Shown here: piece by piece, positions 12,239-52,486 of the stretch
How the letters are laid out: each line of letters begins with the position of its first letter
Position numbering within the stretch: the stretch's first letter is position 1
Source: Piscinibacter sp.
GTDB lineage: Bacteria; Pseudomonadota; Gammaproteobacteria; Burkholderiales; Burkholderiaceae_C
Direction: 5' to 3'
DNA: 64,000 nt
NCBI GenBank assembly: GCA_017983795.1
Contig: JAGOAS010000020.1
Location: forward strand, 29,574-93,573
The notes under the pieces: generated by a model
The model's input: only the letters and a program-made list of their open reading frames with translations
Told to the model about the DNA's origin: nothing
Databases searched by the model: none
Position numbers and translations under genes: made by a program

Positions 12239-13126
12239 TTGGCTTCCGAAAAACGCGTCGTCTTCCGTTCCGGCTGGCTGCCCTGGGCGCTGCTCGCGCC
12301 CCAGGTGGCCGTCATCGCCGTGTTCTTCTTCTGGCCGGCGGGGCAGGCGCTGCTGCAGTCGTTCCAGCAGTCCGACGCCTTCGGCACCTCCACCGAGTGG
12401 GTCGGGCTGCAGAACTTCGCTCGCCTGTTCGGCGACCCGACCTACCTCGCCTCGTTCCAGACCACCGCGCTGTTCTCGGTGCTGGTGGCCGGGCTGGGCA
12501 TCGCCATCTCGCTGCTGCTGGCGGTCTACGCCGATCGCGTGGTGCGCGGCGCGCTCGCCTACCGCACGCTGCTGATCTGGCCCTACGCGGTGGCGCCGGC
12601 GGTGGCCGGGGTGCTGTGGCTGTTCATGTTCGCGCCGTCCATCGGCATCGTCTCGTACGCGCTGCGCAGCGTCGGCATCGAATGGAACCACCTGCTCAAC
12701 AGCGGCCAGGCCATGACGCTGATCGTGCTGGCCGCGGTGTGGAAGCAGCTCTCCTACAACTTCCTGTTCTTCCTCGCCGGGCTGCAGAGCATCCCGAAGT
12801 CGCTCATCGAGGCCGCGGCGATCGACGGCGCACGCCCCTGGCGGCGCTTCTGGACCATCCAGTTCCCGCTGCTCTCGCCGACCACCTTCTTCCTGTTCGT
12901 GATCAACGTCGTCTACGCCTTCTTCGACACCTTCGCGATCGTCGACGCCGCGACGCAGGGCGGCCCGGGCAAGGACACCGCCATCCTCGTCTACAAGGTC
13001 TACTACGACGGCTTCAAGGCGCTCGACCTGGGCGGCTCGGCGGCGCAGTCGGTGGTGCTGATGGCGATCGTCATCGCACTCACGGTGGTGCAGTTCCGCT
13101 TCGTCGAGAAGAAGGTCACCTACTAG
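12239..13126 (+). CDS. ugpA: Glycerol-3-phosphate ABC transporter permease UgpA
   Basis: The 295-residue inner-membrane permease has six hydrophobic segments and the EAA loop ([20 protein letters not shown]) that docks on the ATPase. The N-terminus [19 protein letters not shown] matches UgpA. No ATG is available. The start is the TTG at 12239, seven bases after the ugpB stop, and only a weak GAG precedes it. Translation therefore probably depends on coupling to ugpB. Confidence 0.94.
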
Positions 13127-13133
13127 GCTCCGC

Positions 13134-13985
13134 ATGGTCGAACGCCGCCCCACCCTCGGCATCCTGGCGCACGTCGTGCTGCTGCTGGGTGTGCTGCTCG
13201 TCGCCTTCCCGCTCTACGTGACCTTCGTCGCGTCGACGCAGACCGCCGAGGAGATCCTGCAGGCACCGATGTCGCTCGTGCCCGGCAGCCACCTGGTCGA
13301 GAACTACCTCGCCGCGCTGAAGGGCACGGGCATGGGGGCGGCCTCCAACGCGCCGGTCGGCCGCATGATGATGGTCAGCCTGGTCACCGCACTGGTGATC
13401 GCCTTCGGCAAGATCGGAATCTCGCTGCTGTCGGCCTTCGCCATCGTCTACTTCCGCTTCCCGCTGCGCAACGTCTTCTTCTGGGCCATCTTCGTCACGC
13501 TGATGCTGCCGGTGGAAGTGCGCATCGGGCCGACCTACGAGGTGGTGGCCGGGCTCGGCATGCTCAACAGCTACGCCGGCCTGACGGTGCCGCTGATCGC
13601 CTCGGCCACCGCCACCTTCCTGTTCCGCCAGTTCTTCCTCACCGTGCCCGACGAACTCGTGGAAGCGGCCCGCATCGACGGCGCCGGGCCGATGCGATTC
13701 TTCATCGACGTGCTGGTGCCCCTGTCGGCCACCTCGATCGCGGCGTTGTTCGTCATCCAGTTCATCTACGGCTGGAACCAGTACCTCTGGCCGCTGCTGG
13801 TGACCACCGACGAAGCCATGTACCCGGTGGTCATCGGCATCAAGCGCATGATCAGCGGCGGCGACGCCGCCACCGACTGGAACATCGTGATGGCCACTGC
13901 GATGCTGGCGATGATCCCGCCGGCACTCGTCGTTCTGCTGATGCAGAAGTGGTTCGTCAAGGGCCTCGTGGACACCGAAAAATAG
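13134..13985 (+). CDS. ugpE: Glycerol-3-phosphate ABC transporter permease UgpE
   Basis: The 283-residue partner permease of UgpA has six membrane segments and the EAA loop [20 protein letters not shown] at about residues 180-199. The block [17 protein letters not shown] after the first membrane segment is typical of UgpE. It starts eight bases after ugpA and ends twelve bases before ugpC. Together with UgpA it forms the membrane channel for glycerol-3-phosphate. Confidence 0.94.
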
Positions 13986-50619: not shown

Positions 50620-51237
50620 ATGAAGCTGCCCGAGCTCGCGGGCCTGTTCCTCGCCTTTCTCGCCCGCCTCATCACGGGCGCGCAAGGCCACTGGTACGGC
50701 AGCCCGCCCAAGGCCGAGCAGCGCATCTATTTCGCCAACCACCAGAGCCATTTCGACTGGGTGCTGATCTGGGCCGCGCTGCCGCGCGAGCTGCGCGCGG
50801 TGACGCGGCCGATCGCCGCGCGCGACTACTGGACCTCGAGCAAGCTCAAGCACTGGATCACGCGCGAGATCTTCAACGCGGTCTACGTATCGCGCCAGCG
50901 CTCGGCCGACGAGGATCCGCTCGAGCCGCTGATGGAAGCGCTGCGCCACGGCGACTCGCTGGTGATCTTCCCCGAGGGCACACGCGGCTTCGCCGCCGAC
51001 CCGGCGCCGTTCAAGGCGGGACTCTTTCACCTCGCCGAAGCCTTCCCCGAGGTGCAGCTGATTCCGGCCTGGATAGCCAACGTGCAGCGCGTGATGCCCA
51101 AGGGCGAGGTGGTGCCGGTGCCCATCCTCTGCTCGGTGACCTTCGGCGCGCCGCTGCAGCTGCAGCCGGGCGAGGACAAGCGTGTCTTCCTCGACCGCGC
51201 GCGCGAGGCGGTGATGGCGCTGAGAGAGGTGGATTGA
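50620..51237 (+). CDS. 1-Acyl-sn-glycerol-3-phosphate acyltransferase (PlsC family)
   Basis: The 205-residue membrane-associated acyltransferase has the catalytic NHxxHxD block NHQSHFDW (near residues 41-48), the substrate-binding FPEGTRGFA and a short N-terminal hydrophobic segment. It would make phosphatidic acid from lysophosphatidic acid. The cytidylyltransferase that uses phosphatidic acid is the next gene, at 51512. The 274 bp between them holds two large hairpin elements. Confidence 0.88.
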
Positions 51238-51277
51238 TGCTCTGCGTTGCGCTTCTCGTTCCGCCGTCGTCGGAGCG

Positions 51278-51350
51278 CGGCATGGGTCGGGCAGGCTGGG
51301 CTGTGCGCGGCCCGATATCCGTGCTCGCCCAGCCTGCCCGACCCATGCCG
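51278..51350. repeat. Hairpin element A: 24-bp perfect inverted arms, 25-nt spacer
   Basis: The left arm 51278-51301 and right arm 51327-51350 are exact reverse complements over 24 bp. The spacer 51302-51326 contains CCCGATAT and the palindrome GATATC. The spacer matches 22 of 25 bases of element B when B is read on the other strand. The arms match B at only 15 of 24 positions, yet pairing is perfect in both. There is no T-run, so it is not a simple terminator. Confidence 0.9.
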
Positions 51351-51399
51351 TGGCAGCCGTGGCGCGCTGCGCATTCCTTGGGCGCGCTCGGTGGTGGAA

Positions 51400-51472
51400 C
51401 GGCTGGGCCGGGGCCTGCCGGTCGAGCACCGATATCGGGCGGCGCGCAGACCGGCAGGCCCCGGCCCAGCCG
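51400..51472. repeat. Hairpin element B: inverted, covarying partner of element A
   Basis: The left arm 51400-51423 and right arm 51449-51472 pair perfectly over 24 bp, with a 25-nt spacer (51424-51448) again centred on GATATC. Its length (73 nt) and layout are identical to element A, but it points the other way, 49 bp downstream. As RNA in the plsC-cdsA message, both would form very stable hairpins. Confidence 0.9.
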
Positions 51473-51511
51473 CGCTCGGTGCAGCCGCGCTCAGCGCAGC
51501 CAACAATAGTC

Positions 51512-52486
51512 ATGGGCGCGCTCAGAGACCTCAGCGTCAGCCAGCAGATCGGCCTGCTGTTCGTGCTGCTGTTCGGCTTGCTGGCCATCGTCAGCATCGT
51601 CGCCACCACGCGCTCGGTGCGCGAGCGCACGCCGGAAGACCAGGAGCGCTTCGACCGCTTCGTGCGCGACCTGCGCGCCGTCTGGCTCGGCGCGGTGCTG
51701 TTCTGGGTCGCCTGGGCCTCGGGCGCCTTCGTCTCGACGCTGCTGTTCGGCGTGCTCTCCTTCGTCGCGCTGCGCGAGTTCGTCACGCTGACGCAGACGC
51801 GCCGCGGCGACCACCGCAGCCTGCTGCTGGCCTTCTTCGTCGTGCTGCCGCTGCAGTACGGCATCGTCGCCACCGAGCACTTCGACCTCTTCACCGTATT
51901 CATCCCGGTGTACGTGTTCCTCGCCATCCCGCTGGTCAGCGCCTTCGGCAACGACCCGACGCGCTTTCTCGAGCGCACCGCCAAGATCCAGTGGGGCATC
52001 ATGGTCTGCGTCTACGGCATGAGCCACGCGCCGGCGCTGCTGCTGCTCGACCTGCCGCGCTACGAGGAGCGCGGCGCCTTCATGGTGCTGTACCTGGTGC
52101 TCGTAGTGGCCAGCGCGCAGATCGTGCAGGAGGTGGCCAGCCGCTGGCTGCGCCGCCGCCCGGTGGCGCGCGCCATCAGCCGTTCGTTCTCGTGGCGCGC
52201 CTGGTGGATCGGCGCGCTCTCGGCCGGCGTCGTCGGCGCGGCGCTGTACTGGGCCACACCCTTCAAGCCCATCCCGGCGCTGGTGATGGGCTTCATCGCC
52301 GGCGGCGCCGGCAGCTTCGGCGAGTTCGTGATGAAGGCGCTCAAGAAGGACGCCGGCGTGCGCAGCTGGGGCGGCAAGCTGGCCGTCACGGGCGCGGTCG
52401 GCCTGCTCGACCGGGTGGCTCCGCTGTGCTTCGCGGCGCCGGTGTTCTTCCACGCGGTGCGCTGGTACTTCAGCCTGCGGTCGTGA
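51512..52486 (+). CDS. cdsA: Phosphatidate cytidylyltransferase CdsA
   Basis: The 324-residue polytopic membrane enzyme converts phosphatidic acid and CTP to CDP-diacylglycerol. About eight hydrophobic segments are visible. The C-terminal CDP-diglyceride synthase signature appears as [20 protein letters not shown] followed by GLLDRVAP. The end of the signature deviates slightly from the classic DRxD (DRVAP). ATG 51512 begins [16 protein letters not shown]; no good ribosome site precedes it, and the second hairpin ends 39 bp upstream. Confidence 0.9.

Follow-up and report, generated by a model that had tools for sequence, protein, structure and literature searches.

A twin-hairpin repeat in operons of two Piscinibacter genomes, probably a lineage-restricted mobile palindromic element

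Several described systems resemble the locus analyzed here. In REPINs, the replicating unit is outlined as two inverted units joined by a less conserved linker, with compensatory changes (PMC3116915). REP sequences are defined by a GTAG or CGTC tag at the foot of the hairpin (PMC3733652), and the REP and RAYT definitions applied below were also taken from PMC8266576. Among the MITEs, Chunjie of Geobacter uraniireducens is presented as a non-autonomous intergenic element of 178-235 bp that can sit in an operon (PMC10969869). The same source introduces the Rickettsia palindromic elements, palindromic repeats with an open frame and a conserved peptide. Template-switch hairpins, described for rRNA and RNA genes, acquire symmetric stem changes of several bases in one event (PMC8794818).

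The window, that is, the whole 64-kb stretch of Piscinibacter DNA under analysis, contains two hairpins between neighboring genes that were initially named plsC and cdsA. Pfam agrees with this naming, assigning Acyltransferase (PF01553, plsC-like) and CTP_transf_1 (PF01148, cdsA). The features of the locus are as follows.

51235-51237: stop codon TGA of plsC; the ATG of cdsA is at 51512
51237..51511, plus strand: insertion from the plsC stop to the cdsA start, missing from the 7 other Piscinibacter genomes
51237..51509, plus strand: bridging mini-ORF of 90 codons; its ATG overlaps the plsC TGA by 1 nt and its TAG lies 2 nt before the cdsA ATG
51272..51277, plus strand: foot of hairpin A, GGAGCG
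51278..51301, plus strand: 5' arm of hairpin A, type A
51302..51326, plus strand: spacer of A, which may fold into an inner stem of 6 bp with an 8-nt loop CCCGATAT; conserved across all 19 copies of the genome
51327..51350, plus strand: 3' arm of hairpin A
51351..51399, plus strand: linker between the hairpins, moderately conserved as judged by eye
51400..51423, minus strand: arm of hairpin B, type B
51424..51448, minus strand: spacer of B, inverted relative to that of A
51449..51472, minus strand: second arm of hairpin B
51473..51478, minus strand: foot of hairpin B, CGCTCG (CGAGCG on the minus strand)

The recomputed coordinates agree with the initial annotation. Hairpins A (51278-51350) and B (51400-51472) are each 73 nt long, lie 49 bp apart in opposite orientation, and have 24-nt arms with 100% complementarity around 25-nt spacers. 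Two counts were likewise reproduced, the identity of the A spacer and the inverted B spacer at 22 of 25 positions and the difference of the arms at nine of 24. The spacer had also been described as centered on GATATC; this motif in fact occupies spacer positions 13-18 and is off-center. Base composition alone, at this spacer length, predicts about 7e-9 such perfect structures in the 64-kb window, and of the 13 inverted-repeat pairs listed for it (arms of at least 16 nt, separation up to 150 nt), only these two are both perfect and spaced. The remark that T-tracts are lacking holds as well, with 0 terminator-like matches (GC hairpin plus T-tract) between 51150 and 51600; the same interval contains no sigma-70-like match. 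The element core, comprising hairpin A, the linker, and the inverted hairpin B, is about 207 bp long and is bordered on each side by 12-37 nt of poorly conserved flank.

A search of the source genome (4.24 Mb) with a degenerate spacer pattern allowing 3 mismatches yielded 19 spacers, and the reversed-pattern control yielded 0. Sixteen of these spacers form 8 inverted pairs, 115-122 nt apart. The 11 loci (C36, which is the plsC-cdsA locus, and C3, C7, C15, C16, C29, C35, C39, C40, C43, and C45) comprise 8 intact pairs and 3 deletion derivatives (C16, C29, C45). In Piscinibacter aquaticus KACC 15278 (G200; this genome is 77% complete), 8 spacers form 4 pairs at 4 loci (g269k, g1255k, g3536k, g4261k). 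Two sites are common to both carriers (C16 = g1255k and C29 = g4261k), giving 13 distinct sites. The unit of the family is the A+B hairpin pair: the inverted doublet is repeated at 8/11 loci in the source genome and at 4/4 in P. aquaticus. At C45:198009 (L018), a deletion has joined the A and B hairpins into a recombination product, and the reading phase is preserved.

The distribution of the element is narrow. Among 8 Piscinibacter genomes, a covariance model detected it in the source genome and P. aquaticus and found none in the 6 others. In an exact 22-mer scan of one genome per species (84,980 species), real copies outside the source occurred only in P. aquaticus KACC 15278; a match on an Oscillibacter contig (L038) had no arms and was rejected. 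Under stricter filters, the source genome was the sole match in 299 family genomes, G200 not being among the genomes listed. A further 17 loci, 15 of them in 14 other family genomes and 2 in congener G202, matched the spacer with 2-3 mismatches; they pair at 3 to 12 of the 24 arm positions and were rejected as chance. Collections of plasmid, phage, and viral contigs contained no match to the element, and among the literature matches listed no title or abstract beginning describes this family. Thus, the proposed search for further copies by spacer and covariance model has produced 11 loci here and 4 in P. aquaticus, and the suggestion of a mobile palindromic family is supported by the multiple copies, their paired arrangement, and the empty sites in relatives described below.

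Like a REPIN, the Piscinibacter element is an inverted pair with a less conserved linker and symmetric arm changes. It differs from REPINs in its 24-bp stems, its long conserved spacer, and its restriction to 11 loci, as well as in the lack of a detected RAYT in its carriers, the lack of the GTAG/CGTC tag, and its location mostly at operon stop-start junctions. A member of the REP/REPIN family proper, mobilized by a RAYT that is now lost, would account for the inverted hairpin doublet, the common foot beside the stem, the compensatory stem changes of the kind outlined for REPINs (PMC3116915), and the unpaired bases that interrupt the inner stem. However, 13 of the 19 hairpins of the source genome have GGAGCG or CGAGCG as the foot bordering the stem, hence mostly (G/C)GAGC, and none of the 19 has GTAG or CGTC; the hairpins are 73 nt long; and the loci are only 11. 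The initial annotation considered a RAYT gene elsewhere in the genome, but Y1_Tnp/RAYT (PF01797) gave 0 matches in the source genome and in the P. aquaticus genome. The only Y1_Tnp (REP/IS200-type) match in the 8 Piscinibacter genomes, L089 (G193:C1:347916-348239), belongs to a genome in which the element was not found. Membership in the REP/REPIN family proper therefore seems distinctly unlikely.

The resemblance to MITEs consists in the short, multi-copy, non-autonomous character of the element and the empty sites in relatives. Unlike MITEs, it appears to lack conserved terminal inverted repeats at its edges and a clear target duplication of fixed length, and no parent transposon was found. 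BLAST of the locus against its own genome, with 40 of the 493 first-look candidates scored, returned the known copies and matches outside the element, no longer relative, and no ends shared with an autonomous transposon. In summary, the element works like a REPIN or a MITE, but it has neither the RAYT nor the tag by which REPs are recognized and no clear transposon ends.

The insert between plsC and cdsA is absent from 7/7 other Piscinibacter genomes. At the empty junction the two genes overlap in G091 and G202 and are separated by 1 nt in G204, G200, G193, and G201 and by 10 nt in G203. The C15 and C39 junctions also lack the element in 7/7 congeners, with 40-90 nt of other sequence at the latter in G204 and G203. 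In G203 this junction, located between two permease genes (L117/L124), contains about 90 nt of GC-rich extra sequence, more than in other congeners. The C7 junction has no insert in two congeners (G204, G091); in G202 the same genes are separated by another insert, about 750 nt long (L092), apparently a second hit on this stop-start junction. The C43, C45, C35, g269k, and g3536k junctions are empty in 3-7 relatives each, and both sites found only in P. aquaticus (g269k, g3536k) are empty in the source genome. One such empty counterpart, of an ABC permease junction filled in P. aquaticus (L040), lies in the window itself at 13007-13257 (G000:C36:42580-42830), with 7 nt between the genes. Empty counterparts could thus be read for 9 of the 13 sites (C36, C7, C39, C15, C43, C45, C35, g269k, g3536k). 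The nine do not include C16 and C29, at which both carriers have the element, C3, or C40, whose downstream flank is partly masked.

Most insertions fall between co-directional genes (12/13 sites; 10/11 in the source genome alone), with C3 located between convergent genes. Eight of the nine sites with an empty counterpart are tight co-directional stop-start junctions, where tight means a co-directional gap of at most 25 nt in at least one relative; the ninth, C15, is a wider co-directional gap. Tight co-directional gaps make up 239 of the 4676 intergenic bases in the window, as delimited by a home-made gene finder. The resulting junction bias has p 4e-10 for 8/9, or p 2e-9 for 8/10 if C3 is counted as a miss on account of its convergent genes. 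At five of the 11 operon-orientation sites, Pfam places both flanking genes in one complex: ABC permease pairs at C39, C45, and C43, an ABC ATPase pair at g3536k, and an oxoacid:ferredoxin oxidoreductase pair at C16. The g269k site is probably a sixth one-complex junction, the Pfam search having covered its upstream permease only. Coupling by overlap is described as frequent for genes of one complex (PMC12548453).

Target duplications are short and imperfect. They are clear only at C7 (CATGA) and C39 (ATGAGC); partial junction repeats occur at C45 (TGACGTG/TGACATG) and g1255k (GCGATGAG) and are weak at C36. At 11 copies, 12-37 nt separate the hairpin feet from the edges of the insertion. The flanks from junction to foot vary in length and sequence, in which they differ from the ends of classical transposons, and are weakly alike, a similarity that is reached by 1 of 300 single-base shuffles on the left and 0 of 300 on the right.

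The orientation of the element is also biased. At 11 of the 12 co-directional sites, hairpin A adjoins the upstream stop and hairpin B the downstream start (two-sided p 0.006). The exception is C15, a reversed copy without a bridging ORF. By a bridging ORF we mean a frame that opens with ATG, GTG, or TTG at the upstream stop, crosses the element, and ends at the downstream start. Such a frame is present at 9 of the 11 distinct operon-orientation sites, or 11 of 13 when orthologues are counted separately, and is missing at C35 and g269k. Relative to the first base of the downstream start, the end of its stop falls in the range from 11 nt upstream to 3 nt downstream, and lies 12 nt upstream at g4261k. 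Dinucleotide shuffles give an expectation of 0.99 bridging sites against the 9 observed (p 3e-10); these shuffles overstate the significance of the ORF, and the copies share ancestry. At 8 of the 9 bridging sites, the reverse-complemented core would likewise give an open frame in phase. Openness is thus not specific to orientation, and we therefore rely on the phase-only null of 1/3, for which p is 0.0014. For the same reason the bridging ORF does not explain the orientation bias, which has another cause.

The bridging frame brings in the possibility that a small basic peptide is the selected product and that the element is a functional mini-gene, like the Rickettsia palindromic elements. The Piscinibacter element shares with these the open frame, and the B-end frame and peptide are common to all 11 bridging copies, with weak codon constraint. 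Nominally, symmetric change in type-A arms is commonest where both arms are at third codon positions (i=9, 15, 18), and in type-B arms it is rarest where both are at second codon positions. However, many Rickettsia elements lie inside ORFs, in frame, whereas this element lies between two ORFs and bridges a stop to a start. The A half is in another frame in part (g1255k) or wholly (g3536k), and the bridge is nevertheless kept, which speaks for continuity rather than for the peptide. The N/S evidence is weak. With 10 copies for each half, the predicted frame of A has a ratio of 0.56, the lowest of the forward frames, and that of B is nearly tied for lowest (0.62 vs 0.64); the ratios of the reverse frames are as low (0.54 for A, 0.60 for B). 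Three mini-ORFs searched against Pfam, including that between plsC and cdsA, gave no match. Three loci have lost much sequence; all three deletion derivatives keep the reading phase. We regard a functional mini-gene as quite improbable.

The evolution of the arms is best described separately for the two hairpin types. Each intact pair consists of one type-A and one type-B hairpin, mutually inverted. In most copies the inner arm reads ..CGGGCAGGCxGGGC in type A and ..GGCCTGCCGGTC in type B. Since both arm types stand at each intact locus, the nine arm differences between the two hairpins of the window are mainly differences between A and B. The initial reading of these differences as compensated changes is thus replaced by the type distinction for most of the nine, but symmetric change itself is real within types: the outer arm halves still change symmetrically, and the inner halves are mostly fixed. 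In the 456 arm cells of the source genome (24 arm pairs in 19 sequences), 75 are changed on both sides, part of them reflecting the A/B difference, 1 is changed on one side (G-U type, the standard pair), and 28 are unpaired. The covariation is far above that of slid controls, in which it collapses. Eleven of the 27 hairpins of both carriers are perfect at 24/24 positions, with 11 different arm sequences.

Mismatches carry a strand signal. In a table of arm positions for 24 of the 27 hairpins (12 A and 12 B; the recombinant A of C45, the A of g1255k with an indel, and the recombinant B of C29 were dropped), transition-type mismatches read on the spacer strand comprise 14 A-C vs 2 G-T, in addition to 7 other mismatches. 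The A-C excess on the spacer strand is alike in A and B, though these are inverted relative to each other in the transcript. Because the rows share ancestry, we grade this bias as only suggestive. In the spacer, positions 8 and 19 are complementary in all 19 copies of the source genome (13 G-C, 6 C-G), so that six inner base pairs, one of them an invariant G-T, can form around a loop of 8 nt; the g4261k B spacer of P. aquaticus breaks this pairing.

Comparison of filled sites between the two species gives a mixed picture. In the C29 orthologues, two inner B-arm positions differ symmetrically and a third differs by a mismatch, and the orthologous C16 locus shows decay as well, with deletions and mismatches. 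Copying from another locus may account for the symmetric C29 differences. Arm decay without compensation at homologous loci had been put forward as evidence against a family maintained in folded form; decay is indeed seen at both orthologous filled loci, but alongside some symmetric differences. L046 and L016, taken at one point as orthologues, are opposite ends of one gene and were dropped from this comparison.

An alternative explanation of such stems is a structured mRNA element, in which the twin hairpins affect the operon transcript (its stability, its processing by RNase III, attenuation, or the control of re-initiation) and the stems stay paired through selection on the RNA. In favor of this reading, the predicted fold of the twin hairpins is very strong (-201.5 kcal/mol, z -9.8), 12/13 sites lie between co-directional genes, 11/12 of these in one orientation, and the covariation is far above that of the slid controls. 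However, G-U pairs are regarded as a common intermediate in the change of RNA stems, and template switching is presented as a one-step symmetric change of several bases (PMC8794818). The near absence of G-U intermediates, with one one-sided cell against 75 two-sided, argues against selection on RNA pairing alone. The transition mismatches follow the spacer strand and not the mRNA strand. Rfam 15 gave nothing above the gathering score, the best matches, to microRNA models, reaching 39 bits where the gathering scores are 78 and 168, and the element is absent from the same operons of relatives. The structured RNA considered in the initial annotation thus loses ground, and we consider it unlikely. 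DNA-level correction and/or recognition of folded DNA is a likelier cause of arm pairing than selection on RNA. The symmetric stem changes are shared with template-switch hairpins; here they occur in a bacterial repeat family, and the mechanism is inferred only.

Recognition at the DNA level could also mean a putative cruciform or dyad site that binds a chromosomal protein and has spread through recombination. The perfect arms and the highly conserved spacer with GATATC would suit such a site. On the other hand, the source genome has only 11 loci, 10 of them between co-directional genes, and the outer arm halves keep complementarity rather than sequence. A role as a protein-binding site is accordingly very improbable.

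Most probably, the element is a lineage-restricted, non-autonomous mobile palindromic element of REPIN/MITE-like type, which was inserted between plsC and cdsA after the split from the known congeners. Its sites are best read as translationally coupled junctions to which it is directed or at which it is tolerated. By analogy with the proposal for REPINs, it may move as folded single-stranded DNA through an enzyme acting on the hairpins. The arms would be kept paired by template-switch (quasipalindrome) correction in replication and/or by the need of the enzyme for a good hairpin. Insertion would occur into or next to overlapping stop and start codons, with a short and often decayed duplication, so that the left junction copy would supply the upstream stop and a start, and the right copy a stop and the downstream start. 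Retained copies would be mostly those in reading phase, with both genes intact. Ribosomes could then run through the hairpins, unfolding them as they translate, and start again at the next gene, and translational coupling would be preserved.

It is a tentative but plausible further step to regard this combination, that is, insertion aimed specifically at overlapping stop-start codons in a single orientation, copies kept in phase, and the ribosome handed through, as an operon-tolerant transposition strategy. Both transcription and translation would be expected to suffer from a mobile element within an operon. If the proposal is true, this family would illustrate how selfish DNA may spread in operons while leaving translational coupling unbroken, and the copies would be natural test pieces for two models of coupling, unfolding and re-initiation. 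The symmetric arm changes, in a unit whose hairpins are opposite in the transcript, provide a natural experiment on template-switch correction versus RNA selection.
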